A stretch of 64,000 nucleotides of DNA from Loripinus fragilis. Taxonomy: Eukaryota > Mollusca > Bivalvia > Lucinida > Lucinidae. A program made the position numbers and the translations under genes. Under the pieces are notes generated by a model. It ran no database searches. It saw only the letters and a list, made by a program, of their open reading frames with translations, and was not told the origin of the DNA. Within the stretch, counting starts at the first letter, position 1. Every line of letters starts with the position of its first letter. Positions 14,269 to 40,845 of the stretch are shown in pieces. The stretch is taken from assembly GCA_964019695.1 (NCBI GenBank), contig OZ026525.1, positions 84,516,279 through 84,580,278 on the forward strand, read 5' to 3'.

Positions 14269-14309
14269 GGCACGAGACCGCAATTATTTCTACTATATAA
14301 TTTAATCAT
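14269..14309 (-). other. Transposon-derived in-frame start for truncated GPATCH3 exon 1
   Basis: On the minus strand the terminal 41 bases of the array read ATG plus 12 further codons in frame with GPATCH3 exon 1, giving MIKLYSRNNCGLV and then a codon split with the host. No stop intervenes. It would allow an N-terminally altered protein if transcription starts within the array. Confidence 0.5.
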
Positions 14310-14724
14310 TCCTTACAACACCTACATTTTAACATGACGAACCTGGCTTTCTGCTATAGCTTGTCCCCAATTCTGCATGGCCTGACAATCACTCCAATGG
14401 GTGTTTAGATAGGGGAAGTTCGGCTCGTTTGTTTACAATCGGAATGTAAACAAACCCTCTTTGACTCAGCAGCTCTCTAGGGTCATTTCGGCAATATTTT
14501 ACCCAGGGTGTGCAGAGGCCCCAATCTATCCAGAATGAACAGCTACAGGGACAGAAGCAACACTCTCTAGAAGCTTAATCATTGGTCAGCCCAGACAAGC
14601 CCAAGAACAAGGATGCTCACATCAACTGGCAGATTTACAGCCCATTGAAAAGGGAACTATCTTGTGTGGAATTATATCCGTTTTCTATTCAACCAATCAA
14701 GGGAAATAATTGTGGTCTGATTCC
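14269..14724 (+). repeat. Module A, copy 1 (456 bp, TIR-bounded)
   Basis: It begins GGCACGAGACC and ends GGTCTGATTCC, with a 22-bp imperfect inverted repeat. Inside is a perfect 9-bp dyad, TTTGTTTAC / GTAAACAAA (14428-14436, 14446-14454), which also contains forkhead-like GTAAACA motifs. It has no coding capacity and acts as the left terminus of the array. Confidence 0.8.
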
Positions 14725-15388
14725 TATCAGCCCCTCATTTTACCCCATATTGAGAAAAGGAACCTATCTACCATCAACAGCATATTCAATGAGTATGTGA
14801 TAGTAATATTAGAACAATAGAATGAGATCACTTAATGTGACAGCCATTTAATCACATGCACCATATTTGTGAAAAAAGAGCCTCCCGAGAAGACATTTTT
14901 TTCTGGTCGAATCATCAGTTTTTTTGCAATAACTTTCTTATTTCTTAAAATTTTGGAATGAAATAAAAAATGTCAGAGTCTCTGAAGTGCCCTCTCTCAA
15001 CATGATCCAAAATTGATGAAAAAAATATCCGCCCAGCAGGTCTAGGGCATTTTAAAATTAAATTTCAATATTTTTAAAAAAATTTAAACTTTAAATTCAA
15101 ATTTTAAAAATAAAAATGAAAATTTAAACAACTAAATTTTAGTCTAAATTATTTCTATAACAATGCTAAAGAAGATAGGAGCCCTTTCAGCTTCTGTGTA
15201 TATGATGCTGAAGAATGCAAAGCAGTCAAACGCGGTATGTGTCAATAAAGTGTCAACGGAATACACACCACCACCTGGACGACATGTGCATATGCTAATC
15301 CGTGTCATCAAAAGTGGCAAGGTCACTATAAATATGATGCCATTCACTATTTAGAATACCCCAAAATCTGACATTTTGTAAAAATGGG

Positions 15389-15422
15389 TATAAATAGCAC
15401 AAGATTTTTTTTCTTTTCATTC
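15389..15422 (+). promoter_or_regulatory. TATA/Inr core promoter of transposase, unit 1
   Basis: TATAAATA at 15389-15396 lies 30 bp upstream of the A of a TCATTC initiator (15417-15422). The transposase ATG is 18 bases further on. The spacing is canonical for RNA polymerase II core promoters. Confidence 0.65.
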
Positions 15423-15436
15423 TATTAGTAATAAAT

Positions 15437-17467
15437 ATGAAAGGCGACAAGAAGAAATCACATAAGTTCAAAAAGGGCAATGTGCCCTGGAACAAGGGCA
15501 TATCCACTCATTGTGCTGACTCTAATGAGGCTTGTGTAGACTCCAGTGATGTTTCAGACCCACCTAGCACTACGATAAAGGCTAACAGAACAGTAAGAAT
15601 GACAGAGGAAGAGTATTACCTGGTAACCAACAAATCAAGAGATGGTACTTCAAGAACCATGCCAGACTGTGAGGGATCAACTAGCTCAACTGGCTCTACT
15701 AGACTTCTTCGACCAGCACGAACGCCTTCATCTGACCTGAAAACAGACAGAAAAGCTCAAGACACTGATGGAATGAGACTTGTTGATAATGACAAAATGG
15801 TAGAATCATGGAATACAGCATACAGGCTCCATAGGCAGGAGAGCTCACAGTGTGATATGCCGCACATGGTAATAGCAAATGAGAGGAAGTGGGGCGTCTG
15901 TTGGAGATTGACTCTAAGGTGTGTTAACTGTGAATTTCACACTCCTGAATTCAAACTGTACAGAGAGATCATTAGCAATAAGCCAGGACCTAACCCAGGA
16001 GCACCTAATATTGGCCTTGGTATTGGCCTGCAAGACACACCCTTGGGAAACAAAGGTGCCCGTCTACTCATGTCAAATATGGATATGCCACCTCCAGCTA
16101 GAAGTAGTATGCAGAGGACATCAAAGATAGTATCAAAGACTGTGAAAGATCTCAATGACAGGGACATGGCTCAAAAGGTTGAAATGCTCAAGGACATTAA
16201 TATTAAGCGTGGCCACGAGGCATCAGAAATAAACATTGCCATGGATGGACGGTATAACTCAGTTACTATTGCGAGCCGCAAGAAGCCCGGACAGAATGCA
16301 TCTCAAGCGATCGGGGTTGCATGTGAAACTATGACGGACAAAAAGTTTGTGATTCAGGCCAGCTTCAAAAATAAGTTGTGTTGGACTGGAAATTGGCTCA
16401 AAGGAAAAGGAATTGATGTGCAGTGTCCCGGTGGACATCCAGAGTGTACAGCTAATATGTCCGTGTTTCAACCTTTCTCAGAGTATGACATGGGACATGA
16501 TATAGGCAGTCAGCTTGCGCTTCAAGGAATGCTTATAAAGTATGCAACAACAGATGGAGACTCGAGATCGGCCGAAGGTATAGATCATGCGATGAAGTCT
16601 TTTCACCCTATGTGGAATGTACAGCGCTTGGCCGACCCAACTCATTTGGGTCAGTCTCAGTTTAGAAAGTGTAACCAGGCAGATTTCAGTCAAGAGATGT
16701 TTCCCGGAAGGACACGTGAACAACGCAAAGAGCAGCAGAAAGTGTTAAGTCAGGATATTAAAGCAAGGTGTAGCCTTATTTTAAAGGAACTTATGATGGA
16801 CTTTGCAGGAGACATGAATTCATTACGAAGAATCTTACCAAAGGTTTTGGAATCAACGCTGGCTTGTTATGATGGGGACTGTTCTAGATGTTCCAGCCAT
16901 TCCGTTGTCTGTAATGGTGGTGTCACTAACAACTGGTGGACTCGTTCTATGTTCTTAGCTTCTAATAGGCTCTTTAACCTGAACATGAATGAAAATGATA
17001 AACAGTTACTCCTTGAAATACTGAAGAAGAAATTGAGTGTAGCTGCAGTTGAGCAAATGAAACTATATACTGATACCCAGAAATGTGAAGCAGTCAATCG
17101 AGCTTTAAGTGTTTCCCTGCCGAAAAATGTCAATTTTTCTGCAACGATGGAAGGGAGAGCTTCATCAGCAATTCACAGGATTAATAATGATCCAGGAACA
17201 TCTTCAATTAAGAAATGTGAAAGTGCGGGTATTGAGCTGTCAACACGGGCGAAGAGAGCTTTGCGATCATTTGATGTTGAGGCAGAATATTCCAGAGATT
17301 ATGCTACGCGATCAGAAGTTGTTAAACATAAACTCATTCAACACAGTAACAAAATTCAAGAACATTCGGAATATAAGCGTGTAACTAAAACCAAATCAGA
17401 CTATAGAAAAGGACAGCTAGATGCATCTCCATCAACTAGCGGACTAAAAAATGATCATACTTACTGA
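15437..17467 (+). CDS. Mutator-like DDE transposase, unit 1
   Basis: The 676-residue protein is intronless and intact. The N-terminus is basic (KGDKKKSHKFKKG, NVPWNKG), probably for nuclear import or DNA contact. A Cys/His cluster follows (CWRLTLRCVNCEFH, about 154-167). Next comes the conserved NIGLGIGLQDT / NKGARLL segment, then an RNase H-like catalytic core with DGRYNS (D270), TTDGDSRS (D373) and KCEAVNRA (E551), a plausible DDE triad. Between the last two acids are ADPTHLGQ and a Cys-rich CSRCSSHSVVC insert. The end EGRASSAIHRINNDPG and a basic tail close the protein. This order matches the 'Mutator-like transposase' domain family (PF20700 as I recall it) of invertebrate genomes. It should cut and join element ends in the nucleus. 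The start is fixed by the TATA/Inr pair just upstream. No partner gene is recognised in the unit. Confidence 0.82.
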   Translation: MKGDKKKSHKFKKGNVPWNKGISTHCADSNEACVDSSDVSDPPSTTIKANRTVRMTEEEYYLVTNKSRDGTSRTMPDCEGSTSSTGSTRLLRPARTPSSDLKTDRKAQDTDGMRLVDNDKMVESWNTAYRLHRQESSQCDMPHMVIANERKWGVCWRLTLRCVNCEFHTPEFKLYREIISNKPGPNPGAPNIGLGIGLQDTPLGNKGARLLMSNMDMPPPARSSMQRTSKIVSKTVKDLNDRDMAQKVEMLKDINIKRGHEASEINIAMDGRYNSVTIASRKKPGQNASQAIGVACETMTDKKFVIQASFKNKLCWTGNWLKGKGIDVQCPGGHPECTANMSVFQPFSEYDMGHDIGSQLALQGMLIKYATTDGDSRSAEGIDHAMKSFHPMWNVQRLADPTHLGQSQFRKCNQADFSQEMFPGRTREQRKEQQKVLSQDIKARCSLILKELMMDFAGDMNSLRRILPKVLESTLACYDGDCSRCSSHSVVCNGGVTNNWWTRSMFLASNRLFNLNMNENDKQLLLEILKKKLSVAAVEQMKLYTDTQKCEAVNRALSVSLPKNVNFSATMEGRASSAIHRINNDPGTSSIKKCESAGIELSTRAKRALRSFDVEAEYSRDYATRSEVVKHKLIQHSNKIQEHSEYKRVTKTKSDYRKGQLDASPSTSGLKNDHTY

Positions 17468-19583
17468 AAAGGTCTGGAGATTGTAGCTCTTAGAAATGTC
17501 TTCTGTGTAGGCTGTCAGTACTGTCTGTGATGCATTGCAGTCAGATCACTCCCGTTGTCTCCAATTCCTAAAATTTAAATATGTAACTTGACAATCTAAC
17601 CTGTATTTATAGTAAAGCATATTGCACAATCTTACATGTGTACTAAAAAAAAAAAGGAAAAAAAAATCTTGTTGTTGTCAGTTGTCAGTTACTGACATTT
17701 GTCAGTTACTGATATTGCAATTTTGACCTTCTTAGCAAATAGTGCAGACCCAGATCAAAGTGCCCTTTAAGAGCACTCTGATATGGGTCTACACTCATAA
17801 GCAGAAGATACAAATCAATACAAGCTAACATGGTGCGGATATAATCACAATCGGTTTAGATTCAGATCAGACAGTTCTGAGAGGAAAAGTTTGATCAGAG
17901 TCCAGACTGCTTGTGAACCACACTTGAAGTTTGAGGCCGCACAGATGATACCGTATAAATCCTAGATATTAACAGGCATGAGCAAGTAGTGTCAACCAAG
18001 ATCAGACAACCTGCATAGGAATATTCTGGTCTGGGCTTACAAAACTTGACCTCATCAAATTTAAAAAAAAAAATCATTTTTAAAAGACTTAAGAAAAAGT
18101 TTGCAGGGTAACTGAGAAGTCCCAATATTTATGGTAAATTCGGTATCCAAACCATTTGAACATGACGACAAATAAACATGTCTTCGAGGTTTGACTCCTG
18201 GACTCTCTCATCAACAATGGAATCTTCCATCACACATCATTACTGCACTAAAAAACCCCACCTTAACTGGAGTTTGAAACAAAACTGGTGTTACCATATC
18301 TATCCTAAATTGCCAGCTTATGTAATGTCAACCCAGATCAAACTGCTCATGGAGGTCTGGTCAGGGTTTACACTAGTTGTCATTCCAATGCTACATTTAA
18401 CCTTGTCGGATTTGTAAAGGGGCATGTTCAAATTTTACGATGCGTTTGGTCACTGGGGGAGATGAGCTGGACTGATGTTTAGGGTAGATACGGTAGACAC
18501 CATATTTGAGCCTTGTGACAAAAAATATATAATTATATGCCCAGAAAATGCCACAATCACAGACAACAGACCAACCAATGGCACCTAGAGGAAGAGATAC
18601 TTAAAGTAAACATTTGTTGTGGGTACTCATTGGAAGCATCACAATATGAGACCCTTCAGAGTCTCATTGAAATGTCTCCAATGTCAGCACCCGGCATATG
18701 TTTTTTTGCAACATTATTCAGAAAGCTGTCATGTTGTACATCAAATTAAAGAAAATGAAGAGAAGAAAACTTGCCCCCACCCCCACCCCCACCCCACTTA
18801 CACCAAAAAAGACCTTACACTTACATTGCCAGACACCAAGAAAATCAACGTTTTCCAAAACCAATCGAAGTGAATTTGAAGAACAGATTACCAACATGTG
18901 AGCACAAATTAAGCCATTTTGAGCCTACTATTTACCTAAAATCAAAACTTCAAATACAAAACACAATCACGAAACTCCCCATGTCCACTACAACAGCAAC
19001 GGTTCACACATTTTTGCCGTGCATTATTCACTGCATGGGGCTCGGCACTAAGATGCTCGCCGCGAACGCACAGCTTGTTATGGCAAAGGTGGCTTATATC
19101 TTGGCCAGTAATGTCCATATTCTGGTTGAAAACCATAAAACTTAGCCGATGTGCTGTGGTGCATCGCCACAGGCCAGATATCGGACATTTATATTTTACG
19201 GCCCCTTAACCATTTTTTTGAGGTTTCCGAGGCCACAAGAGACACTCTCCATTTGGGGCCGGGACGCATTCTGTTTCAAAAAGACACTTATATTTTTCAA
19301 AAAATCCCTCCATTTATGACTTTTAGAAACTCAGATGGAGTAAGAATACATTTGACAACTGCAAAATGACATCATTCTGACAGGCACTAATTCTCGACAC
19401 TATCAAGGCCCTAGAAATCTAAATTTTAACAAAATATTCCAAATTTTTTGCTGATTTTATCTTGAAAGGCTTGAAACTTATCTAATTTCTTATCTCTGGA
19501 CCAACTGTCAGCTCATTCTGGACACAAACATCTCAAAAATTGGAAAATAAAAAATGAATCTACCACACACTAACATCAGAACA
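17468..19583 (+). other. Non-coding 3' part of module B, unit 1
   Basis: It holds an A-rich run (17644-17669), gtcagttactga repeats (about 17685-17715), a 22-bp-arm hairpin (17742-17793) starting GTGCAGACCCAGATC, and an (CCCCCA)n run near 18774-18796. A segment at about 18609-18710 recalls the family H MITE (aacatttgttgtgggtactca). The small ORFs here have no protein signature. The same content recurs in each unit. Confidence 0.6.
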
Positions 19584-20039
19584 GGCACGAGACCGCAATT
19601 ATTTCTACTATATAATTTAATCATTCCTTACAACACCTACATTTTAACATGACGAACCTGGCTTTCTGCTATAGCTTGTCCCCAATTCTGCATGGCCTGA
19701 CAATCACTCCAATGGGTGTTTAGATAGGGGAAGTTCGGCTCGTTTGTTTACAATCGGAATGTAAACAAACCCTCTTTGACTCAGCAGCTCTCTAGGGTCA
19801 TTTCGGCAATATTTTACCCAGGGTGTGCAGAGGCCCCAATCTATCCAGAATGAACAGCTACAGGGACAGAAGCAACACTCTCTAGAAGCTTAATCATTGG
19901 TCAGCCCAGACAAGCCCAAGAACAAGGATGCTCACATCAACTGGCAGATTTACAGCCCATTGAAAAGGGAACTATCTTGTGTGGAATTATATCCGTTTTC
20001 TATTCAACCAATCAAGGGAAATAATTGTGGTCTGATTCC
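19584..20039 (+). repeat. Module A, copy 2
   Basis: Same 456-bp TIR-bounded module as at 14269. It is preceded by the end of module B (catcagaaca) and followed by tatcagcccctc. Confidence 0.8.
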
Positions 20040-20703
20040 TATCAGCCCCTCATTTTACCCCATATTGAGAAAAGGAACCTATCTACCATCAACAGCATAT
20101 TCAATGAGTATGTGATAGTAATATTAGAACAATAGAATGAGATCACTTAATGTGACAGCCATTTAATCACATGCACCATATTTGTGAAAAAAGAGCCTCC
20201 CGAGAAGACATTTTTTTCTGGTCGAATCATCAGTTTTTTTGCAATAACTTTCTTATTTCTTAAAATTTTGGAATGAAATAAAAAATGTCAGAGTCTCTGA
20301 AGTGCCCTCTCTCAACATGATCCAAAATTGATGAAAAAAATATCCGCCCAGCAGGTCTAGGGCATTTTAAAATTAAATTTCAATATTTTTAAAAAAATTT
20401 AAACTTTAAATTCAAATTTTAAAAATAAAAATGAAAATTTAAACAACTAAATTTTAGTCTAAATTATTTCTATAACAATGCTAAAGAAGATAGGAGCCCT
20501 TTCAGCTTCTGTGTATATGATGCTGAAGAATGCAAAGCAGTCAAACGCGGTATGTGTCAATAAAGTGTCAACGGAATACACACCACCACCTGGACGACAT
20601 GTGCATATGCTAATCCGTGTCATCAAAAGTGGCAAGGTCACTATAAATATGATGCCATTCACTATTTAGAATACCCCAAAATCTGACATTTTGTAAAAAT
20701 GGG

Positions 20704-20737
20704 TATAAATAGCACAAGATTTTTTTTCTTTTCATTC
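20704..20737 (+). promoter_or_regulatory. TATA/Inr core promoter of transposase, unit 2
   Basis: Same TATAAATA and TCATTC pair and spacing as in unit 1. Confidence 0.65.
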
Positions 20738-20751
20738 TATTAGTAATAAAT

Positions 20752-22782
20752 ATGAAAGGCGACAAGAAGAAATCACATAAGTTCAAAAAGGGCAATGTGC
20801 CCTGGAACAAGGGCATATCCACTCATTGTGCTGACTCTAATGAGGCTTGTGTAGACTCCAGTGATGTTTCAGACCCACCTAGCACTACGATAAAGGCTAA
20901 CAGAACAGTAAGAATGACAGAGGAAGAGTATTACCTGGTAACCAACAAATCAAGAGATGGTACTTCAAGAACCATGCCAGACTGTGAGGGATCAACTAGC
21001 TCAACTGGCTCTACTAGACTTCTTCGACCAGCACGAACGCCTTCATCTGACCTGAAAACAGACAGAAAAGCTCAAGACACTGATGGAATGAGACTTGTTG
21101 ATAATGACAAAATGGTAGAATCATGGAATACAGCATACAGGCTCCATAGGCAGGAGAGCTCACAGTGTGATATGCCGCACATGGTAATAGCAAATGAGAG
21201 GAAGTGGGGCGTCTGTTGGAGATTGACTCTAAGGTGTGTTAACTGTGAATTTCACACTCCTGAATTCAAACTGTACAGAGAGATCATTAGCAATAAGCCA
21301 GGACCTAACCCAGGAGCACCTAATATTGGCCTTGGTATTGGCCTGCAAGACACACCCTTGGGAAACAAAGGTGCCCGTCTACTCATGTCAAATATGGATA
21401 TGCCACCTCCAGCTAGAAGTAGTATGCAGAGGACATCAAAGATAGTATCAAAGACTGTGAAAGATCTCAATGACAGGGACATGGCTCAAAAGGTTGAAAT
21501 GCTCAAGGACATTAATATTAAGCGTGGCCACGAGGCATCAGAAATAAACATTGCCATGGATGGACGGTATAACTCAGTTACTATTGCGAGCCGCAAGAAG
21601 CCCGGACAGAATGCATCTCAAGCCATCGGGGTTGCATGTGAAACTATGACGGACAAAAAGTTTGTGATTCAGGCCAGCTTCAAAAATAAGTTGTGTTGGA
21701 CTGGAAATTGGCTCAAAGGAAAAGGAATTGATGTGCAGTGTCCCGGTGGACATCCAGAGTGTACAGCTAATATGTCCGTGTTTCAACCTTTCTCAGAGTA
21801 TGACATGGGACATGATATAGGCAGTCAGCTTGCGCTTCAAGGAATGCTTATAAAGTATGCAACAACAGATGGAGACTCGAGATCGGCCGAAGGTATAGAT
21901 CATGCGATGAAGTCTTTTCACCCTATGTGGAATGTACAGCGCTTGGCCGACCCAACTCATTTGGGTCAGTCTCAGTTTAGAAAGTGTAACCAGGCAGATT
22001 TCAGTCAAGAGATGTTTCCCGGAAGGACACGTGAACAACGCAAAGAGCAGCAGAAAGTGTTAAGTCAGGATATTAAAGCAAGGTGTAGCCTTATTTTAAA
22101 GGAACTTATGATGGACTTTGCAGGAGACATGAATTCATTACGAAGAATCTTACCAAAGGTTTTGGAATCAACGCTGGCTTGTTATGATGGGGACTGTTCT
22201 AGATGTTCCAGCCATTCCGTTGTCTGTAATGGTGGTGTCACTAACAACTGGTGGACTCGTTCTATGTTCTTAGCTTCTAATAGGCTCTTTAACCTGAACA
22301 TGAATGAAAATGATAAACAGTTACTCCTTGAAATACTGAAGAAGAAATTGAGTGTAGCTGCAGTTGAGCAAATGAAACTATATACTGATACCCAGAAATG
22401 TGAAGCAGTCAATCGAGCTTTAAGTGTTTCCCTGCCGAAAAATGTCAATTTTTCTGCAACGATGGAAGGGAGAGCTTCATCAGCAATTCACAGGATTAAT
22501 AATGATCCAGGAACATCTTCAATTAAGAAATGTGAAAGTGCGGGTATTGAGCTGTCAACACGGGCGAAGAGAGCTTTGCGATCATTTGATGTTGAGGCAG
22601 AATATTCCAGAGATTATGCTACGCGATCAGAAGTTGTTAAACATAAACTCATTCAACACAGTAACAAAATTCAAGAACATTCGGAATATAAGCGTGTAAC
22701 TAAAACCAAATCAGACTATAGAAAAGGACAGCTAGATGCATCTCCATCAACTAGCGGACTAAAAAATGATCATACTTACTGA
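20752..22782 (+). CDS. Mutator-like DDE transposase, unit 2
   Basis: Protein identical to unit 1, with D270, D373 and E551 intact. It carries the one base that distinguishes any of the five ORFs: c instead of g at 21624, third position of an Ala codon, silent. This marks it as a physically distinct copy rather than pure assembly duplication of the others. Confidence 0.82.
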   Translation: MKGDKKKSHKFKKGNVPWNKGISTHCADSNEACVDSSDVSDPPSTTIKANRTVRMTEEEYYLVTNKSRDGTSRTMPDCEGSTSSTGSTRLLRPARTPSSDLKTDRKAQDTDGMRLVDNDKMVESWNTAYRLHRQESSQCDMPHMVIANERKWGVCWRLTLRCVNCEFHTPEFKLYREIISNKPGPNPGAPNIGLGIGLQDTPLGNKGARLLMSNMDMPPPARSSMQRTSKIVSKTVKDLNDRDMAQKVEMLKDINIKRGHEASEINIAMDGRYNSVTIASRKKPGQNASQAIGVACETMTDKKFVIQASFKNKLCWTGNWLKGKGIDVQCPGGHPECTANMSVFQPFSEYDMGHDIGSQLALQGMLIKYATTDGDSRSAEGIDHAMKSFHPMWNVQRLADPTHLGQSQFRKCNQADFSQEMFPGRTREQRKEQQKVLSQDIKARCSLILKELMMDFAGDMNSLRRILPKVLESTLACYDGDCSRCSSHSVVCNGGVTNNWWTRSMFLASNRLFNLNMNENDKQLLLEILKKKLSVAAVEQMKLYTDTQKCEAVNRALSVSLPKNVNFSATMEGRASSAIHRINNDPGTSSIKKCESAGIELSTRAKRALRSFDVEAEYSRDYATRSEVVKHKLIQHSNKIQEHSEYKRVTKTKSDYRKGQLDASPSTSGLKNDHTY

Positions 22783-24898
22783 AAAGGTCTGGAGATTGTA
22801 GCTCTTAGAAATGTCTTCTGTGTAGGCTGTCAGTACTGTCTGTGATGCATTGCAGTCAGATCACTCCCGTTGTCTCCAATTCCTAAAATTTAAATATGTA
22901 ACTTGACAATCTAACCTGTATTTATAGTAAAGCATATTGCACAATCTTACATGTGTACTAAAAAAAAAAAGGAAAAAAAAATCTTGTTGTTGTCAGTTGT
23001 CAGTTACTGACATTTGTCAGTTACTGATATTGCAATTTTGACCTTCTTAGCAAATAGTGCAGACCCAGATCAAAGTGCCCTTTAAGAGCACTCTGATATG
23101 GGTCTACACTCATAAGCAGAAGATACAAATCAATACAAGCTAACATGGTGCGGATATAATCACAATCGGTTTAGATTCAGATCAGACAGTTCTGAGAGGA
23201 AAAGTTTGATCAGAGTCCAGACTGCTTGTGAACCACACTTGAAGTTTGAGGCCGCACAGATGATACCGTATAAATCCTAGATATTAACAGGCATGAGCAA
23301 GTAGTGTCAACCAAGATCAGACAACCTGCATAGGAATATTCTGGTCTGGGCTTACAAAACTTGACCTCATCAAATTTAAAAAAAAAAATCATTTTTAAAA
23401 GACTTAAGAAAAAGTTTGCAGGGTAACTGAGAAGTCCCAATATTTATGGTAAATTCGGTATCCAAACCATTTGAACATGACGACAAATAAACATGTCTTC
23501 GAGGTTTGACTCCTGGACTCTCTCATCAACAATGGAATCTTCCATCACACATCATTACTGCACTAAAAAACCCCACCTTAACTGGAGTTTGAAACAAAAC
23601 TGGTGTTACCATATCTATCCTAAATTGCCAGCTTATGTAATGTCAACCCAGATCAAACTGCTCATGGAGGTCTGGTCAGGGTTTACACTAGTTGTCATTC
23701 CAATGCTACATTTAACCTTGTCGGATTTGTAAAGGGGCATGTTCAAATTTTACGATGCGTTTGGTCACTGGGGGAGATGAGCTGGACTGATGTTTAGGGT
23801 AGATACGGTAGACACCATATTTGAGCCTTGTGACAAAAAATATATAATTATATGCCCAGAAAATGCCACAATCACAGACAACAGACCAACCAATGGCACC
23901 TAGAGGAAGAGATACTTAAAGTAAACATTTGTTGTGGGTACTCATTGGAAGCATCACAATATGAGACCCTTCAGAGTCTCATTGAAATGTCTCCAATGTC
24001 AGCACCCGGCATATGTTTTTTTGCAACATTATTCAGAAAGCTGTCATGTTGTACATCAAATTAAAGAAAATGAAGAGAAGAAAACTTGCCCCCACCCCCA
24101 CCCCCACCCCACTTACACCAAAAAAGACCTTACACTTACATTGCCAGACACCAAGAAAATCAACGTTTTCCAAAACCAATCGAAGTGAATTTGAAGAACA
24201 GATTACCAACATGTGAGCACAAATTAAGCCATTTTGAGCCTACTATTTACCTAAAATCAAAACTTCAAATACAAAACACAATCACGAAACTCCCCATGTC
24301 CACTACAACAGCAACGGTTCACACATTTTTGCCGTGCATTATTCACTGCATGGGGCTCGGCACTAAGATGCTCGCCGCGAACGCACAGCTTGTTATGGCA
24401 AAGGTGGCTTATATCTTGGCCAGTAATGTCCATATTCTGGTTGAAAACCATAAAACTTAGCCGATGTGCTGTGGTGCATCGCCACAGGCCAGATATCGGA
24501 CATTTATATTTTACGGCCCCTTAACCATTTTTTTGAGGTTTCCGAGGCCACAAGAGACACTCTCCATTTGGGGCCGGGACGCATTCTGTTTCAAAAAGAC
24601 ACTTATATTTTTCAAAAAATCCCTCCATTTATGACTTTTAGAAACTCAGATGGAGTAAGAATACATTTGACAACTGCAAAATGACATCATTCTGACAGGC
24701 ACTAATTCTCGACACTATCAAGGCCCTAGAAATCTAAATTTTAACAAAATATTCCAAATTTTTTGCTGATTTTATCTTGAAAGGCTTGAAACTTATCTAA
24801 TTTCTTATCTCTGGACCAACTGTCAGCTCATTCTGGACACAAACATCTCAAAAATTGGAAAATAAAAAATGAATCTACCACACACTAACATCAGAACA

Positions 24899-25354
24899 GG
24901 CACGAGACCGCAATTATTTCTACTATATAATTTAATCATTCCTTACAACACCTACATTTTAACATGACGAACCTGGCTTTCTGCTATAGCTTGTCCCCAA
25001 TTCTGCATGGCCTGACAATCACTCCAATGGGTGTTTAGATAGGGGAAGTTCGGCTCGTTTGTTTACAATCGGAATGTAAACAAACCCTCTTTGACTCAGC
25101 AGCTCTCTAGGGTCATTTCGGCAATATTTTACCCAGGGTGTGCAGAGGCCCCAATCTATCCAGAATGAACAGCTACAGGGACAGAAGCAACACTCTCTAG
25201 AAGCTTAATCATTGGTCAGCCCAGACAAGCCCAAGAACAAGGATGCTCACATCAACTGGCAGATTTACAGCCCATTGAAAAGGGAACTATCTTGTGTGGA
25301 ATTATATCCGTTTTCTATTCAACCAATCAAGGGAAATAATTGTGGTCTGATTCC
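24899..25354 (+). repeat. Module A, copy 3
   Basis: Same module, intact at both ends. It is the last A before the junction where the next A is missing. Confidence 0.8.
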
Positions 25355-26018
25355 TATCAGCCCCTCATTTTACCCCATATTGAGAAAAGGAACCTATCTA
25401 CCATCAACAGCATATTCAATGAGTATGTGATAGTAATATTAGAACAATAGAATGAGATCACTTAATGTGACAGCCATTTAATCACATGCACCATATTTGT
25501 GAAAAAAGAGCCTCCCGAGAAGACATTTTTTTCTGGTCGAATCATCAGTTTTTTTGCAATAACTTTCTTATTTCTTAAAATTTTGGAATGAAATAAAAAA
25601 TGTCAGAGTCTCTGAAGTGCCCTCTCTCAACATGATCCAAAATTGATGAAAAAAATATCCGCCCAGCAGGTCTAGGGCATTTTAAAATTAAATTTCAATA
25701 TTTTTAAAAAAATTTAAACTTTAAATTCAAATTTTAAAAATAAAAATGAAAATTTAAACAACTAAATTTTAGTCTAAATTATTTCTATAACAATGCTAAA
25801 GAAGATAGGAGCCCTTTCAGCTTCTGTGTATATGATGCTGAAGAATGCAAAGCAGTCAAACGCGGTATGTGTCAATAAAGTGTCAACGGAATACACACCA
25901 CCACCTGGACGACATGTGCATATGCTAATCCGTGTCATCAAAAGTGGCAAGGTCACTATAAATATGATGCCATTCACTATTTAGAATACCCCAAAATCTG
26001 ACATTTTGTAAAAATGGG

Positions 26019-26052
26019 TATAAATAGCACAAGATTTTTTTTCTTTTCATTC
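26019..26052 (+). promoter_or_regulatory. TATA/Inr core promoter of transposase, unit 3
   Basis: Same TATAAATA and TCATTC arrangement as in unit 1. Confidence 0.65.
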
Positions 26053-26066
26053 TATTAGTAATAAAT

Positions 26067-30206: not shown

Positions 30207-30220
30207 CAGAACAGCCCCTC
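30207..30220 (+). other. Module A deletion junction between units 3 and 4
   Basis: Module B ends catcagaacag here and continues directly into cccctcatttta. The 461 bp present at other junctions are absent. The three bases CAG are shared by the two ends (aaCAG / atCAG), as in microhomology-mediated deletion. Confidence 0.85.
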
Positions 30221-30872
30221 ATTTTACCCCATATTGAGAAAAGGAACCTATCTACCATCAACAGCATATTCAATGAGTATGTGATAGTAATATTAGAACA
30301 ATAGAATGAGATCACTTAATGTGACAGCCATTTAATCACATGCACCATATTTGTGAAAAAAGAGCCTCCCGAGAAGACATTTTTTTCTGGTCGAATCATC
30401 AGTTTTTTTGCAATAACTTTCTTATTTCTTAAAATTTTGGAATGAAATAAAAAATGTCAGAGTCTCTGAAGTGCCCTCTCTCAACATGATCCAAAATTGA
30501 TGAAAAAAATATCCGCCCAGCAGGTCTAGGGCATTTTAAAATTAAATTTCAATATTTTTAAAAAAATTTAAACTTTAAATTCAAATTTTAAAAATAAAAA
30601 TGAAAATTTAAACAACTAAATTTTAGTCTAAATTATTTCTATAACAATGCTAAAGAAGATAGGAGCCCTTTCAGCTTCTGTGTATATGATGCTGAAGAAT
30701 GCAAAGCAGTCAAACGCGGTATGTGTCAATAAAGTGTCAACGGAATACACACCACCACCTGGACGACATGTGCATATGCTAATCCGTGTCATCAAAAGTG
30801 GCAAGGTCACTATAAATATGATGCCATTCACTATTTAGAATACCCCAAAATCTGACATTTTGTAAAAATGGG

Positions 30873-30906
30873 TATAAATAGCACAAGATTTTTTTTCTTT
30901 TCATTC
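30873..30906 (+). promoter_or_regulatory. TATA/Inr core promoter of transposase, unit 4
   Basis: Same core promoter as in unit 1. It is retained although module A upstream is deleted. Confidence 0.65.
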
Positions 30907-30920
30907 TATTAGTAATAAAT

Positions 30921-32951
30921 ATGAAAGGCGACAAGAAGAAATCACATAAGTTCAAAAAGGGCAATGTGCCCTGGAACAAGGGCATATCCACTCATTGTGC
31001 TGACTCTAATGAGGCTTGTGTAGACTCCAGTGATGTTTCAGACCCACCTAGCACTACGATAAAGGCTAACAGAACAGTAAGAATGACAGAGGAAGAGTAT
31101 TACCTGGTAACCAACAAATCAAGAGATGGTACTTCAAGAACCATGCCAGACTGTGAGGGATCAACTAGCTCAACTGGCTCTACTAGACTTCTTCGACCAG
31201 CACGAACGCCTTCATCTGACCTGAAAACAGACAGAAAAGCTCAAGACACTGATGGAATGAGACTTGTTGATAATGACAAAATGGTAGAATCATGGAATAC
31301 AGCATACAGGCTCCATAGGCAGGAGAGCTCACAGTGTGATATGCCGCACATGGTAATAGCAAATGAGAGGAAGTGGGGCGTCTGTTGGAGATTGACTCTA
31401 AGGTGTGTTAACTGTGAATTTCACACTCCTGAATTCAAACTGTACAGAGAGATCATTAGCAATAAGCCAGGACCTAACCCAGGAGCACCTAATATTGGCC
31501 TTGGTATTGGCCTGCAAGACACACCCTTGGGAAACAAAGGTGCCCGTCTACTCATGTCAAATATGGATATGCCACCTCCAGCTAGAAGTAGTATGCAGAG
31601 GACATCAAAGATAGTATCAAAGACTGTGAAAGATCTCAATGACAGGGACATGGCTCAAAAGGTTGAAATGCTCAAGGACATTAATATTAAGCGTGGCCAC
31701 GAGGCATCAGAAATAAACATTGCCATGGATGGACGGTATAACTCAGTTACTATTGCGAGCCGCAAGAAGCCCGGACAGAATGCATCTCAAGCGATCGGGG
31801 TTGCATGTGAAACTATGACGGACAAAAAGTTTGTGATTCAGGCCAGCTTCAAAAATAAGTTGTGTTGGACTGGAAATTGGCTCAAAGGAAAAGGAATTGA
31901 TGTGCAGTGTCCCGGTGGACATCCAGAGTGTACAGCTAATATGTCCGTGTTTCAACCTTTCTCAGAGTATGACATGGGACATGATATAGGCAGTCAGCTT
32001 GCGCTTCAAGGAATGCTTATAAAGTATGCAACAACAGATGGAGACTCGAGATCGGCCGAAGGTATAGATCATGCGATGAAGTCTTTTCACCCTATGTGGA
32101 ATGTACAGCGCTTGGCCGACCCAACTCATTTGGGTCAGTCTCAGTTTAGAAAGTGTAACCAGGCAGATTTCAGTCAAGAGATGTTTCCCGGAAGGACACG
32201 TGAACAACGCAAAGAGCAGCAGAAAGTGTTAAGTCAGGATATTAAAGCAAGGTGTAGCCTTATTTTAAAGGAACTTATGATGGACTTTGCAGGAGACATG
32301 AATTCATTACGAAGAATCTTACCAAAGGTTTTGGAATCAACGCTGGCTTGTTATGATGGGGACTGTTCTAGATGTTCCAGCCATTCCGTTGTCTGTAATG
32401 GTGGTGTCACTAACAACTGGTGGACTCGTTCTATGTTCTTAGCTTCTAATAGGCTCTTTAACCTGAACATGAATGAAAATGATAAACAGTTACTCCTTGA
32501 AATACTGAAGAAGAAATTGAGTGTAGCTGCAGTTGAGCAAATGAAACTATATACTGATACCCAGAAATGTGAAGCAGTCAATCGAGCTTTAAGTGTTTCC
32601 CTGCCGAAAAATGTCAATTTTTCTGCAACGATGGAAGGGAGAGCTTCATCAGCAATTCACAGGATTAATAATGATCCAGGAACATCTTCAATTAAGAAAT
32701 GTGAAAGTGCGGGTATTGAGCTGTCAACACGGGCGAAGAGAGCTTTGCGATCATTTGATGTTGAGGCAGAATATTCCAGAGATTATGCTACGCGATCAGA
32801 AGTTGTTAAACATAAACTCATTCAACACAGTAACAAAATTCAAGAACATTCGGAATATAAGCGTGTAACTAAAACCAAATCAGACTATAGAAAAGGACAG
32901 CTAGATGCATCTCCATCAACTAGCGGACTAAAAAATGATCATACTTACTGA
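30921..32951 (+). CDS. Mutator-like DDE transposase, unit 4 (unit lacks module A)
   Basis: Intact 676-residue ORF, protein identical to unit 1. Its unit is 4,854 bp long rather than 5,315 because module A is missing. The core promoter is untouched, so the deletion need not affect expression. It does remove one set of inverted ends. Confidence 0.82.
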   Translation: MKGDKKKSHKFKKGNVPWNKGISTHCADSNEACVDSSDVSDPPSTTIKANRTVRMTEEEYYLVTNKSRDGTSRTMPDCEGSTSSTGSTRLLRPARTPSSDLKTDRKAQDTDGMRLVDNDKMVESWNTAYRLHRQESSQCDMPHMVIANERKWGVCWRLTLRCVNCEFHTPEFKLYREIISNKPGPNPGAPNIGLGIGLQDTPLGNKGARLLMSNMDMPPPARSSMQRTSKIVSKTVKDLNDRDMAQKVEMLKDINIKRGHEASEINIAMDGRYNSVTIASRKKPGQNASQAIGVACETMTDKKFVIQASFKNKLCWTGNWLKGKGIDVQCPGGHPECTANMSVFQPFSEYDMGHDIGSQLALQGMLIKYATTDGDSRSAEGIDHAMKSFHPMWNVQRLADPTHLGQSQFRKCNQADFSQEMFPGRTREQRKEQQKVLSQDIKARCSLILKELMMDFAGDMNSLRRILPKVLESTLACYDGDCSRCSSHSVVCNGGVTNNWWTRSMFLASNRLFNLNMNENDKQLLLEILKKKLSVAAVEQMKLYTDTQKCEAVNRALSVSLPKNVNFSATMEGRASSAIHRINNDPGTSSIKKCESAGIELSTRAKRALRSFDVEAEYSRDYATRSEVVKHKLIQHSNKIQEHSEYKRVTKTKSDYRKGQLDASPSTSGLKNDHTY

Positions 32952-35067
32952 AAAGGTCTGGAGATTGTAGCTCTTAGAAATGTCTTCTGTGTAGGCTGTC
33001 AGTACTGTCTGTGATGCATTGCAGTCAGATCACTCCCGTTGTCTCCAATTCCTAAAATTTAAATATGTAACTTGACAATCTAACCTGTATTTATAGTAAA
33101 GCATATTGCACAATCTTACATGTGTACTAAAAAAAAAAAGGAAAAAAAAATCTTGTTGTTGTCAGTTGTCAGTTACTGACATTTGTCAGTTACTGATATT
33201 GCAATTTTGACCTTCTTAGCAAATAGTGCAGACCCAGATCAAAGTGCCCTTTAAGAGCACTCTGATATGGGTCTACACTCATAAGCAGAAGATACAAATC
33301 AATACAAGCTAACATGGTGCGGATATAATCACAATCGGTTTAGATTCAGATCAGACAGTTCTGAGAGGAAAAGTTTGATCAGAGTCCAGACTGCTTGTGA
33401 ACCACACTTGAAGTTTGAGGCCGCACAGATGATACCGTATAAATCCTAGATATTAACAGGCATGAGCAAGTAGTGTCAACCAAGATCAGACAACCTGCAT
33501 AGGAATATTCTGGTCTGGGCTTACAAAACTTGACCTCATCAAATTTAAAAAAAAAAATCATTTTTAAAAGACTTAAGAAAAAGTTTGCAGGGTAACTGAG
33601 AAGTCCCAATATTTATGGTAAATTCGGTATCCAAACCATTTGAACATGACGACAAATAAACATGTCTTCGAGGTTTGACTCCTGGACTCTCTCATCAACA
33701 ATGGAATCTTCCATCACACATCATTACTGCACTAAAAAACCCCACCTTAACTGGAGTTTGAAACAAAACTGGTGTTACCATATCTATCCTAAATTGCCAG
33801 CTTATGTAATGTCAACCCAGATCAAACTGCTCATGGAGGTCTGGTCAGGGTTTACACTAGTTGTCATTCCAATGCTACATTTAACCTTGTCGGATTTGTA
33901 AAGGGGCATGTTCAAATTTTACGATGCGTTTGGTCACTGGGGGAGATGAGCTGGACTGATGTTTAGGGTAGATACGGTAGACACCATATTTGAGCCTTGT
34001 GACAAAAAATATATAATTATATGCCCAGAAAATGCCACAATCACAGACAACAGACCAACCAATGGCACCTAGAGGAAGAGATACTTAAAGTAAACATTTG
34101 TTGTGGGTACTCATTGGAAGCATCACAATATGAGACCCTTCAGAGTCTCATTGAAATGTCTCCAATGTCAGCACCCGGCATATGTTTTTTTGCAACATTA
34201 TTCAGAAAGCTGTCATGTTGTACATCAAATTAAAGAAAATGAAGAGAAGAAAACTTGCCCCCACCCCCACCCCCACCCCACTTACACCAAAAAAGACCTT
34301 ACACTTACATTGCCAGACACCAAGAAAATCAACGTTTTCCAAAACCAATCGAAGTGAATTTGAAGAACAGATTACCAACATGTGAGCACAAATTAAGCCA
34401 TTTTGAGCCTACTATTTACCTAAAATCAAAACTTCAAATACAAAACACAATCACGAAACTCCCCATGTCCACTACAACAGCAACGGTTCACACATTTTTG
34501 CCGTGCATTATTCACTGCATGGGGCTCGGCACTAAGATGCTCGCCGCGAACGCACAGCTTGTTATGGCAAAGGTGGCTTATATCTTGGCCAGTAATGTCC
34601 ATATTCTGGTTGAAAACCATAAAACTTAGCCGATGTGCTGTGGTGCATCGCCACAGGCCAGATATCGGACATTTATATTTTACGGCCCCTTAACCATTTT
34701 TTTGAGGTTTCCGAGGCCACAAGAGACACTCTCCATTTGGGGCCGGGACGCATTCTGTTTCAAAAAGACACTTATATTTTTCAAAAAATCCCTCCATTTA
34801 TGACTTTTAGAAACTCAGATGGAGTAAGAATACATTTGACAACTGCAAAATGACATCATTCTGACAGGCACTAATTCTCGACACTATCAAGGCCCTAGAA
34901 ATCTAAATTTTAACAAAATATTCCAAATTTTTTGCTGATTTTATCTTGAAAGGCTTGAAACTTATCTAATTTCTTATCTCTGGACCAACTGTCAGCTCAT
35001 TCTGGACACAAACATCTCAAAAATTGGAAAATAAAAAATGAATCTACCACACACTAACATCAGAACA

Positions 35068-35523
35068 GGCACGAGACCGCAATTATTTCTACTATATAAT
35101 TTAATCATTCCTTACAACACCTACATTTTAACATGACGAACCTGGCTTTCTGCTATAGCTTGTCCCCAATTCTGCATGGCCTGACAATCACTCCAATGGG
35201 TGTTTAGATAGGGGAAGTTCGGCTCGTTTGTTTACAATCGGAATGTAAACAAACCCTCTTTGACTCAGCAGCTCTCTAGGGTCATTTCGGCAATATTTTA
35301 CCCAGGGTGTGCAGAGGCCCCAATCTATCCAGAATGAACAGCTACAGGGACAGAAGCAACACTCTCTAGAAGCTTAATCATTGGTCAGCCCAGACAAGCC
35401 CAAGAACAAGGATGCTCACATCAACTGGCAGATTTACAGCCCATTGAAAAGGGAACTATCTTGTGTGGAATTATATCCGTTTTCTATTCAACCAATCAAG
35501 GGAAATAATTGTGGTCTGATTCC
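35068..35523 (+). repeat. Module A, copy 4
   Basis: Full 456-bp module between units 4 and 5, with both inverted ends present. Confidence 0.8.
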
Positions 35524-36187
35524 TATCAGCCCCTCATTTTACCCCATATTGAGAAAAGGAACCTATCTACCATCAACAGCATATTCAATGAGTATGTGAT
35601 AGTAATATTAGAACAATAGAATGAGATCACTTAATGTGACAGCCATTTAATCACATGCACCATATTTGTGAAAAAAGAGCCTCCCGAGAAGACATTTTTT
35701 TCTGGTCGAATCATCAGTTTTTTTGCAATAACTTTCTTATTTCTTAAAATTTTGGAATGAAATAAAAAATGTCAGAGTCTCTGAAGTGCCCTCTCTCAAC
35801 ATGATCCAAAATTGATGAAAAAAATATCCGCCCAGCAGGTCTAGGGCATTTTAAAATTAAATTTCAATATTTTTAAAAAAATTTAAACTTTAAATTCAAA
35901 TTTTAAAAATAAAAATGAAAATTTAAACAACTAAATTTTAGTCTAAATTATTTCTATAACAATGCTAAAGAAGATAGGAGCCCTTTCAGCTTCTGTGTAT
36001 ATGATGCTGAAGAATGCAAAGCAGTCAAACGCGGTATGTGTCAATAAAGTGTCAACGGAATACACACCACCACCTGGACGACATGTGCATATGCTAATCC
36101 GTGTCATCAAAAGTGGCAAGGTCACTATAAATATGATGCCATTCACTATTTAGAATACCCCAAAATCTGACATTTTGTAAAAATGGG

Positions 36188-36221
36188 TATAAATAGCACA
36201 AGATTTTTTTTCTTTTCATTC
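36188..36221 (+). promoter_or_regulatory. TATA/Inr core promoter of transposase, unit 5
   Basis: Same TATAAATA and TCATTC arrangement as in unit 1. Confidence 0.65.
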
Positions 36222-36235
36222 TATTAGTAATAAAT

Positions 36236-38266
36236 ATGAAAGGCGACAAGAAGAAATCACATAAGTTCAAAAAGGGCAATGTGCCCTGGAACAAGGGCAT
36301 ATCCACTCATTGTGCTGACTCTAATGAGGCTTGTGTAGACTCCAGTGATGTTTCAGACCCACCTAGCACTACGATAAAGGCTAACAGAACAGTAAGAATG
36401 ACAGAGGAAGAGTATTACCTGGTAACCAACAAATCAAGAGATGGTACTTCAAGAACCATGCCAGACTGTGAGGGATCAACTAGCTCAACTGGCTCTACTA
36501 GACTTCTTCGACCAGCACGAACGCCTTCATCTGACCTGAAAACAGACAGAAAAGCTCAAGACACTGATGGAATGAGACTTGTTGATAATGACAAAATGGT
36601 AGAATCATGGAATACAGCATACAGGCTCCATAGGCAGGAGAGCTCACAGTGTGATATGCCGCACATGGTAATAGCAAATGAGAGGAAGTGGGGCGTCTGT
36701 TGGAGATTGACTCTAAGGTGTGTTAACTGTGAATTTCACACTCCTGAATTCAAACTGTACAGAGAGATCATTAGCAATAAGCCAGGACCTAACCCAGGAG
36801 CACCTAATATTGGCCTTGGTATTGGCCTGCAAGACACACCCTTGGGAAACAAAGGTGCCCGTCTACTCATGTCAAATATGGATATGCCACCTCCAGCTAG
36901 AAGTAGTATGCAGAGGACATCAAAGATAGTATCAAAGACTGTGAAAGATCTCAATGACAGGGACATGGCTCAAAAGGTTGAAATGCTCAAGGACATTAAT
37001 ATTAAGCGTGGCCACGAGGCATCAGAAATAAACATTGCCATGGATGGACGGTATAACTCAGTTACTATTGCGAGCCGCAAGAAGCCCGGACAGAATGCAT
37101 CTCAAGCGATCGGGGTTGCATGTGAAACTATGACGGACAAAAAGTTTGTGATTCAGGCCAGCTTCAAAAATAAGTTGTGTTGGACTGGAAATTGGCTCAA
37201 AGGAAAAGGAATTGATGTGCAGTGTCCCGGTGGACATCCAGAGTGTACAGCTAATATGTCCGTGTTTCAACCTTTCTCAGAGTATGACATGGGACATGAT
37301 ATAGGCAGTCAGCTTGCGCTTCAAGGAATGCTTATAAAGTATGCAACAACAGATGGAGACTCGAGATCGGCCGAAGGTATAGATCATGCGATGAAGTCTT
37401 TTCACCCTATGTGGAATGTACAGCGCTTGGCCGACCCAACTCATTTGGGTCAGTCTCAGTTTAGAAAGTGTAACCAGGCAGATTTCAGTCAAGAGATGTT
37501 TCCCGGAAGGACACGTGAACAACGCAAAGAGCAGCAGAAAGTGTTAAGTCAGGATATTAAAGCAAGGTGTAGCCTTATTTTAAAGGAACTTATGATGGAC
37601 TTTGCAGGAGACATGAATTCATTACGAAGAATCTTACCAAAGGTTTTGGAATCAACGCTGGCTTGTTATGATGGGGACTGTTCTAGATGTTCCAGCCATT
37701 CCGTTGTCTGTAATGGTGGTGTCACTAACAACTGGTGGACTCGTTCTATGTTCTTAGCTTCTAATAGGCTCTTTAACCTGAACATGAATGAAAATGATAA
37801 ACAGTTACTCCTTGAAATACTGAAGAAGAAATTGAGTGTAGCTGCAGTTGAGCAAATGAAACTATATACTGATACCCAGAAATGTGAAGCAGTCAATCGA
37901 GCTTTAAGTGTTTCCCTGCCGAAAAATGTCAATTTTTCTGCAACGATGGAAGGGAGAGCTTCATCAGCAATTCACAGGATTAATAATGATCCAGGAACAT
38001 CTTCAATTAAGAAATGTGAAAGTGCGGGTATTGAGCTGTCAACACGGGCGAAGAGAGCTTTGCGATCATTTGATGTTGAGGCAGAATATTCCAGAGATTA
38101 TGCTACGCGATCAGAAGTTGTTAAACATAAACTCATTCAACACAGTAACAAAATTCAAGAACATTCGGAATATAAGCGTGTAACTAAAACCAAATCAGAC
38201 TATAGAAAAGGACAGCTAGATGCATCTCCATCAACTAGCGGACTAAAAAATGATCATACTTACTGA
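36236..38266 (+). CDS. Mutator-like DDE transposase, unit 5
   Basis: Intact 676-residue ORF, identical in protein to units 1-4. It is the last transposase before the right end of the array and is followed by the full non-coding B segment and the terminal module A. Confidence 0.82.
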   Translation: MKGDKKKSHKFKKGNVPWNKGISTHCADSNEACVDSSDVSDPPSTTIKANRTVRMTEEEYYLVTNKSRDGTSRTMPDCEGSTSSTGSTRLLRPARTPSSDLKTDRKAQDTDGMRLVDNDKMVESWNTAYRLHRQESSQCDMPHMVIANERKWGVCWRLTLRCVNCEFHTPEFKLYREIISNKPGPNPGAPNIGLGIGLQDTPLGNKGARLLMSNMDMPPPARSSMQRTSKIVSKTVKDLNDRDMAQKVEMLKDINIKRGHEASEINIAMDGRYNSVTIASRKKPGQNASQAIGVACETMTDKKFVIQASFKNKLCWTGNWLKGKGIDVQCPGGHPECTANMSVFQPFSEYDMGHDIGSQLALQGMLIKYATTDGDSRSAEGIDHAMKSFHPMWNVQRLADPTHLGQSQFRKCNQADFSQEMFPGRTREQRKEQQKVLSQDIKARCSLILKELMMDFAGDMNSLRRILPKVLESTLACYDGDCSRCSSHSVVCNGGVTNNWWTRSMFLASNRLFNLNMNENDKQLLLEILKKKLSVAAVEQMKLYTDTQKCEAVNRALSVSLPKNVNFSATMEGRASSAIHRINNDPGTSSIKKCESAGIELSTRAKRALRSFDVEAEYSRDYATRSEVVKHKLIQHSNKIQEHSEYKRVTKTKSDYRKGQLDASPSTSGLKNDHTY

Positions 38267-40382
38267 AAAGGTCTGGAGATTGTAGCTCTTAGAAATGTCT
38301 TCTGTGTAGGCTGTCAGTACTGTCTGTGATGCATTGCAGTCAGATCACTCCCGTTGTCTCCAATTCCTAAAATTTAAATATGTAACTTGACAATCTAACC
38401 TGTATTTATAGTAAAGCATATTGCACAATCTTACATGTGTACTAAAAAAAAAAAGGAAAAAAAAATCTTGTTGTTGTCAGTTGTCAGTTACTGACATTTG
38501 TCAGTTACTGATATTGCAATTTTGACCTTCTTAGCAAATAGTGCAGACCCAGATCAAAGTGCCCTTTAAGAGCACTCTGATATGGGTCTACACTCATAAG
38601 CAGAAGATACAAATCAATACAAGCTAACATGGTGCGGATATAATCACAATCGGTTTAGATTCAGATCAGACAGTTCTGAGAGGAAAAGTTTGATCAGAGT
38701 CCAGACTGCTTGTGAACCACACTTGAAGTTTGAGGCCGCACAGATGATACCGTATAAATCCTAGATATTAACAGGCATGAGCAAGTAGTGTCAACCAAGA
38801 TCAGACAACCTGCATAGGAATATTCTGGTCTGGGCTTACAAAACTTGACCTCATCAAATTTAAAAAAAAAAATCATTTTTAAAAGACTTAAGAAAAAGTT
38901 TGCAGGGTAACTGAGAAGTCCCAATATTTATGGTAAATTCGGTATCCAAACCATTTGAACATGACGACAAATAAACATGTCTTCGAGGTTTGACTCCTGG
39001 ACTCTCTCATCAACAATGGAATCTTCCATCACACATCATTACTGCACTAAAAAACCCCACCTTAACTGGAGTTTGAAACAAAACTGGTGTTACCATATCT
39101 ATCCTAAATTGCCAGCTTATGTAATGTCAACCCAGATCAAACTGCTCATGGAGGTCTGGTCAGGGTTTACACTAGTTGTCATTCCAATGCTACATTTAAC
39201 CTTGTCGGATTTGTAAAGGGGCATGTTCAAATTTTACGATGCGTTTGGTCACTGGGGGAGATGAGCTGGACTGATGTTTAGGGTAGATACGGTAGACACC
39301 ATATTTGAGCCTTGTGACAAAAAATATATAATTATATGCCCAGAAAATGCCACAATCACAGACAACAGACCAACCAATGGCACCTAGAGGAAGAGATACT
39401 TAAAGTAAACATTTGTTGTGGGTACTCATTGGAAGCATCACAATATGAGACCCTTCAGAGTCTCATTGAAATGTCTCCAATGTCAGCACCCGGCATATGT
39501 TTTTTTGCAACATTATTCAGAAAGCTGTCATGTTGTACATCAAATTAAAGAAAATGAAGAGAAGAAAACTTGCCCCCACCCCCACCCCCACCCCACTTAC
39601 ACCAAAAAAGACCTTACACTTACATTGCCAGACACCAAGAAAATCAACGTTTTCCAAAACCAATCGAAGTGAATTTGAAGAACAGATTACCAACATGTGA
39701 GCACAAATTAAGCCATTTTGAGCCTACTATTTACCTAAAATCAAAACTTCAAATACAAAACACAATCACGAAACTCCCCATGTCCACTACAACAGCAACG
39801 GTTCACACATTTTTGCCGTGCATTATTCACTGCATGGGGCTCGGCACTAAGATGCTCGCCGCGAACGCACAGCTTGTTATGGCAAAGGTGGCTTATATCT
39901 TGGCCAGTAATGTCCATATTCTGGTTGAAAACCATAAAACTTAGCCGATGTGCTGTGGTGCATCGCCACAGGCCAGATATCGGACATTTATATTTTACGG
40001 CCCCTTAACCATTTTTTTGAGGTTTCCGAGGCCACAAGAGACACTCTCCATTTGGGGCCGGGACGCATTCTGTTTCAAAAAGACACTTATATTTTTCAAA
40101 AAATCCCTCCATTTATGACTTTTAGAAACTCAGATGGAGTAAGAATACATTTGACAACTGCAAAATGACATCATTCTGACAGGCACTAATTCTCGACACT
40201 ATCAAGGCCCTAGAAATCTAAATTTTAACAAAATATTCCAAATTTTTTGCTGATTTTATCTTGAAAGGCTTGAAACTTATCTAATTTCTTATCTCTGGAC
40301 CAACTGTCAGCTCATTCTGGACACAAACATCTCAAAAATTGGAAAATAAAAAATGAATCTACCACACACTAACATCAGAACA

Positions 40383-40838
40383 GGCACGAGACCGCAATTA
40401 TTTCTACTATATAATTTAATCATTCCTTACAACACCTACATTTTAACATGACGAACCTGGCTTTCTGCTATAGCTTGTCCCCAATTCTGCATGGCCTGAC
40501 AATCACTCCAATGGGTGTTTAGATAGGGGAAGTTCGGCTCGTTTGTTTACAATCGGAATGTAAACAAACCCTCTTTGACTCAGCAGCTCTCTAGGGTCAT
40601 TTCGGCAATATTTTACCCAGGGTGTGCAGAGGCCCCAATCTATCCAGAATGAACAGCTACAGGGACAGAAGCAACACTCTCTAGAAGCTTAATCATTGGT
40701 CAGCCCAGACAAGCCCAAGAACAAGGATGCTCACATCAACTGGCAGATTTACAGCCCATTGAAAAGGGAACTATCTTGTGTGGAATTATATCCGTTTTCT
40801 ATTCAACCAATCAAGGGAAATAATTGTGGTCTGATTCC
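40383..40838 (+). repeat. Module A, copy 5 (right terminus of the array)
   Basis: This final module stops at GTCTGATTCC, precisely where its inverted repeat ends. The sequence then changes to non-array DNA (aatccattttg). Internal copies continue instead with tatcagcccctc. Confidence 0.8.
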
Positions 40839-40845
40839 AATCCAT
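40786..40845 (-). pseudogene. Probable native GPATCH3 start codon, separated from exon 1
   Basis: On the minus strand CAAAATGGATT gives an ATG with A at -3 and G at +4, ending at the array boundary. Earlier ATGs run quickly into stops. Reading on into module A gives 19 codons and then TAA (40788-40786). The position directly opposite truncated exon 1 suggests it is the original start, with Met-Asp as first residues. The gap to the exon 1 fragment is 26.6 kb, so the allele as shown could not use it for full-length protein without excision. Confidence 0.5.

Follow-up and report, generated by a model that had tools for sequence, protein, structure and literature searches.

The lucinid bivalve Loripinus fragilis carries a tandem array of transposase genes next to the first coding exon of GPATCH3, and the locus raises the question of what the array is, how it grew, and whether it has interrupted the host gene at its coding start. 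The window analyzed here is the whole 64-kb stretch of DNA, which lies on contig C14 of an assembly of 1.99 Gb in 685 contigs. Our explanation as a whole, to which we assign a probability of roughly 0.8, is that the array would be a KolobokP multimer descended from one founder that already bore a stop in its nuclease frame, that it multiplied between its terminal direct repeats, and that it is inserted in coding sequence near the 5' end of GPATCH3.

Structure and identity of the array

The sequence-only reading had described a tandem transposase array at 14269-40838, and the assembled sequence bears this out. Five near-identical units lie there head to tail, each with a 676-aa transposase ORF in the ORF list. 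A repeat comparison of the array gave a period of 5315 bp with one period of 4854 bp, and the ORF-to-ORF spacings were, in order, 5315, 5315, 4854, and 5315 bp. The same 456-bp terminal direct repeat (LTDR), running from GG to CC and having its own terminal inverted repeats (TIRs), is found at both ends, as LTDR 1 at the left edge (14269-14724) and LTDR 5 at the right edge (40383-40838). Between them, and likewise on the plus strand, are internal region (INT) 1 at 14725-19583, LTDR 2 at 19584-20039, INT 2 at 20040-24898 (transposase at 20752-22782), LTDR 3 at 24899-25354, INT 3 at 25355-30213 (transposase at 26067-28097), INT 4 at 30214-35067 (transposase at 30921-32951), LTDR 4 at 35068-35523, and INT 5 at 35524-40382 (transposase at 36236-38266). 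INTs 3 and 4 meet without an LTDR at 30204-30223 on the plus strand; the INT tips have lost 5 bp at this joint, which is identical to an INT-INT joint on contig C10. There were no Rfam matches at gathering score and no tRNAs in the 64-kb window.

Only 1 substitution was found among the 5 INTs of the array. The INT of unit 1 differed from each of 17 INTs at other loci by 21-32 substitutions, and 12 substitutions were fixed in the INTs of the window and absent from those 17. This comparison used 17 of 20 fetched stretches, with L031, L044, and L049 left out.

The DDE transposase ORF of unit 1 (15437-17467, plus strand) matched PF20700 at E 2.1e-75, and the unit's long ORF matched no other Pfam family; Pfam names the family Mutator-like. 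A pattern search placed a D at 270, TTDGD from 371, DPTH from 400, a CCHC motif (CSRCSSHSVVC) from 482, and a KCE with a candidate E from 549 or 593. Downstream of the transposase on the complementary strand is a nuclease frame (18942-19313 in unit 1, minus strand), which matched PF05551 at E 1.4e-10 and is called I-PpoI-like here because it aligned, weakly, with chains of I-PpoI (E 0.12-0.16). A PF20700 protein is also named in a Candidatus Thiodiazotropha metagenome-assembled genome (MAG), where our guess would be host contamination. The unit edges had been taken for Mutator ends, but they are the GG...CC ends of the LTDRs, whose 21 end bases form an inverted repeat with 17 pairs, a degree of pairing reached in 0 of 100000 shuffles.

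A genome search with the transposase gave 66 scored matches of 980 candidates. Loci were obtained for 30 of these, 5 being the window's own, and stretches were fetched for 20 of the 25 non-window units (L025, L026, L027, L029, and L030 were left out). Single copies elsewhere in the genome had the order LTDR-INT-LTDR in 16 of 16 fetched. Exceptions to the 456-bp LTDR were L049, an interrupted copy, and L033 and L043, whose LTDRs have small deletions; in L041 the end bases are altered. A 4-bp target site duplication (TSD) was present at 11 of 15 single copies, at L049, which was read separately from those 15 (12 of 16 with it included), and at a dimer on contig C16. It was absent at the single copies L033, L037, L041, and L047 and at the window array.

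These features can be set against the description of KolobokP by Kojima and Bao (2022), as given in the parts of that paper drawn on here (PMC9587614). KolobokP LTDRs are about 450 bp long, with their own TIRs and RR...YY ends, and the INT carries a DDE transposase on the direct strand and a His-Me finger nuclease on the complementary strand (PMC9587614). The transposase combines DDD/E with C/DxxH and a CCHC zinc finger, TSDs are 3-5 bp, and the elements occur as monomers, as (LTDR-INT)n-LTDR multimers, as INT-INT joints with micro-deletions, and as excision footprints (PMC9587614). The elements in L. fragilis share the LTDRs of about 450 bp with TIRs and RR...YY ends, the two-strand gene layout of the INT, the C/DxxH and CCHC motifs of the transposase, the monomers and multimers, the INT-INT joints, TSDs within 3-5 bp, and a bivalve host, and we assign the array as a KolobokP multimer on its architecture and domains as compared with that description. 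Architecture, multimers, and INT-INT joints were thus already known for KolobokP (PMC9587614). The monomer here is 5.8 kb compared with 4,022-4,748 bp in the autonomous KolobokP families of oyster, and the INT-INT joint lacks 5 bp where the usual joint lacks 3-4 (PMC9587614).

Tandem arrays of LTR retrotransposons and bacterial composite transposons likewise have direct terminal repeats common to adjoining units, but here the repeats have inverted ends of their own and enclose a transposase, and nothing else in Pfam matched the long ORF (PMC9587614 for the systems compared). We rejected an LTR retrotransposon on the inverted ends of the repeats and on the DDE transposase as the only Pfam match. 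Ordinary Mutator (MULE) elements brought into tandem by a chance segmental duplication would agree with the Pfam name of the transposase family; however, Mutator TSDs are 8-11 bp and those observed were 4 bp, all 16 of the single copies fetched are bounded on both sides by LTDRs with TIRs of their own, and the unit also has a nuclease frame that is I-PpoI-like. An ordinary Mutator array was rejected on the TSD length and the LTDRs, and we give a chance tandem of such elements almost no credence.

GPATCH3 and the flanks of the array

GPATCH3 lies to the left of the array on the minus strand. Its exon 1 as preserved (13925-14268) is open to the left edge of the array, in agreement with the sequence-only reading, although its outermost bases may be filler. 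The splice sites of exon 2 (12058-12584) and exon 3 (7273-7447), both on the minus strand, were checked, and exons 1-3 form 346 open codons bordered by the splice dinucleotides GT and AG. The N-terminal NIP...DLRNYFSQF region and the WERHEAL...EKGGSGLVFYTDAQ block of GPATCH3 are both present. The protein had 784 homologues at E ≤ 0.001, and the best six among the 120 listed were from bivalves (Mactra, Mya, Dreissena, Mercenaria, Potamilus, and Sinanodonta), with 56-60% identity; 4 of these six are named GPATCH3 or GPTC3. Searching the genome with the GPATCH3 exons returned 4 candidates and 3 matches, each of them inside the window. Within the window there was no notable motif match to a G-patch domain, so that part of the gene presumably lies beyond the left end. 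In other animals or cells, GPATCH3 has been described, in the parts of those papers used here, as a regulator of RLR/VISA (PMC5407853) and as a splicing regulator (PMC12375585). The gene of those studies belongs to the same family by sequence. Two other frames occupy the left part of the window: a 982-aa plus-strand ORF at 2285-5233, to the left of GPATCH3 exon 3, with reverse transcriptase (PF00078) and RNase H (PF00075) domains, and a serine/arginine-rich open frame of 756 codons at 3-2270 on the minus strand.

On the other side of the array, the minus strand of the right flank reads ATG GAT T toward the array (40845-40839). The minus-strand ATG that had been noted 5 bases past the right edge is therefore confirmed, and it is a candidate for the original start codon of GPATCH3 (40843-40845, its nearest base 5 past 40838). 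In 23 mollusc homologues, chosen by name among the 120 listed, NIP begins 9-23 residues from the N-terminus (median 16). Across both flanks, 2 + 10 residues before NIP survive here, a spacing that makes the right flank plausible as the GPATCH3 start. We consider this identification likely on the sequence of the flanks; the ATG could be there through chance.

Joining the flanks directly gave an out-of-frame product, M-D-stop. Two of 8 joins that were tried, dropping 7+4 or 4+4 junction bases, were in frame and read M-A-H-C-Y-A-I-I-N-N-I-P or M-L-A-H-C-Y... Among 118 homologues counted from those listed, 84 have A as the second residue, 12 have E, and 0 have D, so M-D is unlikely as the original start. 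The earlier claim that the gene is split after about two codons is not established by these data, since no TSD flanks the array, joining the flanks directly breaks the frame, and D is second in 0 of 118 homologues.

A haplotype with joined flanks had been suggested as a check, and no empty allele was found in the assembly, either in the GPATCH3 exon search or in the right-flank search, which used a 500-base query and scored 40 of 1121 candidates, such that a short second copy could escape it. No other listed match reached into the 199 bases of right flank nearest the array (40839-41037), and the remainder of the flank is a dispersed repeat; no empty allele is on hand for this reason. No host gene was recognized by eye right of the array among frames of at least 75 aa. 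A 228-aa ORF at 46163, the only frame from that side sent to a family search, had no Pfam match, and two overlapping frames at 45736-46846 resemble by eye the end of a non-LTR reverse transcriptase.

When read from the right-flank ATG into LTDR 5, the frame stops after 19 residues. LTDR 1 contains an ATG at 14307-14309 on the minus strand from which the frame runs into exon 1 without meeting a stop, and the first ATG within the preserved exon is at its residue 74. The ATG of LTDR 1 could thus give a chimeric GPATCH3 N-terminus, and loss of function is unproven because the left LTDR offers this in-frame start. A KolobokP copy would have inserted in the 5' coding part of the gene, as both flanks suggest, and in the assembled haplotype 26.6 kb would now separate the probable ATG from the remainder of exon 1. 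The near-identical units, the finding of GPATCH3 only once, the open exons 1-3, and the NIP spacing support the earlier proposal to the extent of a recent insertion of several copies next to where exon 1 begins. We regard interruption of GPATCH3 at its coding start as likely but not proven.

Two other accounts of the locus were weighed. The multimer might instead occupy the 5' UTR or an intron upstream, or be adjacent to the real start, leaving the coding sequence unsplit, or transcription from or through the LTDR might allow a start at 14309-14307. The LTDR ATG in frame with exon 1 without an intervening stop, the otherwise undamaged 346 codons of exons 1-3, and the absence of M-D starts from the 118 homologues counted would all be in keeping with such an arrangement; however, chance could readily produce an in-frame ATG 14 codons upstream, and the right-flank ATG is situated where homologues begin (2 + 10 residues before NIP compared with 9-23 in 23 molluscs). 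We judge this account unlikely, with about one chance in a few of being correct. An assembly artefact, either in the number of units or in the placement of the array between these flanks, is less probable still. Near-identical units with 1 substitution among 5 INTs are of a kind that assemblers can miscount, and no TSD ties the two edges together, but the units do differ by that substitution and in structure (one INT-INT joint), regularly spaced matches to the same or a related transposase occur on contigs C10, C15, C16, C51, and C132, and the C16 dimer has a TSD.

Insertion without a target duplication and growth of the array

The window array lacks a TSD: its bordering bases are AACT (left) and AATC (right). 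In this, and in its position at a conserved gene, it is unlike the KolobokP insertions described in the parts of the publication drawn on here (PMC9587614). The left junction, CAGAACT (14262-14268, plus strand), matches the 3' tip of the INT, CAGAACA, at 6 of 7 bases, and the right junction, AATC (40839-40842, plus strand), matches the 5' tip, TATC, at 3 of 4; both may be carried filler. Three of the four single copies without a TSD among the 15 (L033, L037, and L047) have an exact AGAACA, the last 6 bases of the INT, to the left of the element, and the fourth is L041, whose ends are altered. The chance of this pattern is about 7e-9 at equal base frequencies, for a test picked after the pattern was seen. 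No TSD was found by eye outside the presumed carried bases at the copies without a TSD.

These junctions raise the possibility that the array entered GPATCH3 by a non-standard route, in which a piece of an older multimer, cut a few bases beyond its end LTDRs, would have been joined without a TSD, and multiplication would have continued after the nuclease frame broke. With the supposed filler taken out, the joined flanks read M-A-H-C-Y-A-I-I-N-N-I-P without a frame break. On both sides of the window array a mismatch adjoins the LTDR, which argues against simple carry-over. Because of those LTDR-side mismatches and because no TSD lies outside the supposed filler, we offer this route tentatively, as somewhat less probable than an even chance.

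The nuclease frame contains the same stop in 5 of 5 window units, a feature unlike KolobokP as described in those parts of the publication (PMC9587614), and that codon encodes an amino acid in 20 of 20 units at other loci. The frame was open and ungapped across its whole stretch in 18 of the 20 other units; intact nuclease copies therefore exist in the genome. The shared stop and the 12 private fixed substitutions indicate either that the five units came from one founder already possessing the stop or that the stop spread by exchange. By the first route, the founder would have passed the stop to all five units by descent. Multiplication would have occurred by unequal exchange or circle integration between identical LTDRs, as Kojima and Bao propose (PMC9587614), and one internal LTDR with 5 bp of INT tip would have been lost from the joint, as in LTDR excision. 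If the nuclease drives multiplication, as those authors suggest (PMC9587614), it probably acted in trans here; otherwise, plain exchange between LTDRs would be enough. The identical INT-INT joints in the window and on C10 fit either a repeatable excision footprint or common descent.

Regular series of related transposase matches were also observed on other contigs. Contig C51 has 16 matches at 2044-63406, spaced at 4228-4232 bp in 7 of 15 intervals and at 3761 bp in 8 of 15. The difference of about 470 bp corresponds to one LTDR length, so this series resembles a long multimer with approximately half of its joints lacking an LTDR. Contig C132 has 10 matches every 4220 bp at 11148-50789, and contig C15 has 5 matches every 4188 bp at 5859828-5878241.

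Meaning for KolobokP and for GPATCH3

The published picture of KolobokP, as presented in the parts of the paper used here, is unchanged by the array or by the gene interruption (PMC9587614). The new details are the nuclease-frame stop, common to the five units and absent from 20 of 20 others, and the INT-tip bases beside three insertions without a TSD; together with the identical INT-INT joint at two loci, they are the structural points of interest. The window would hold a clean and very young KolobokP multimer, which bears on how composite-like elements multiply and on whether they need their nuclease in cis. It would also be a natural interruption, in at least one haplotype, of a conserved gene that was found once in the assembly and that has been linked elsewhere, in the parts of those papers cited, to RLR signaling (PMC5407853) and splicing (PMC12375585).
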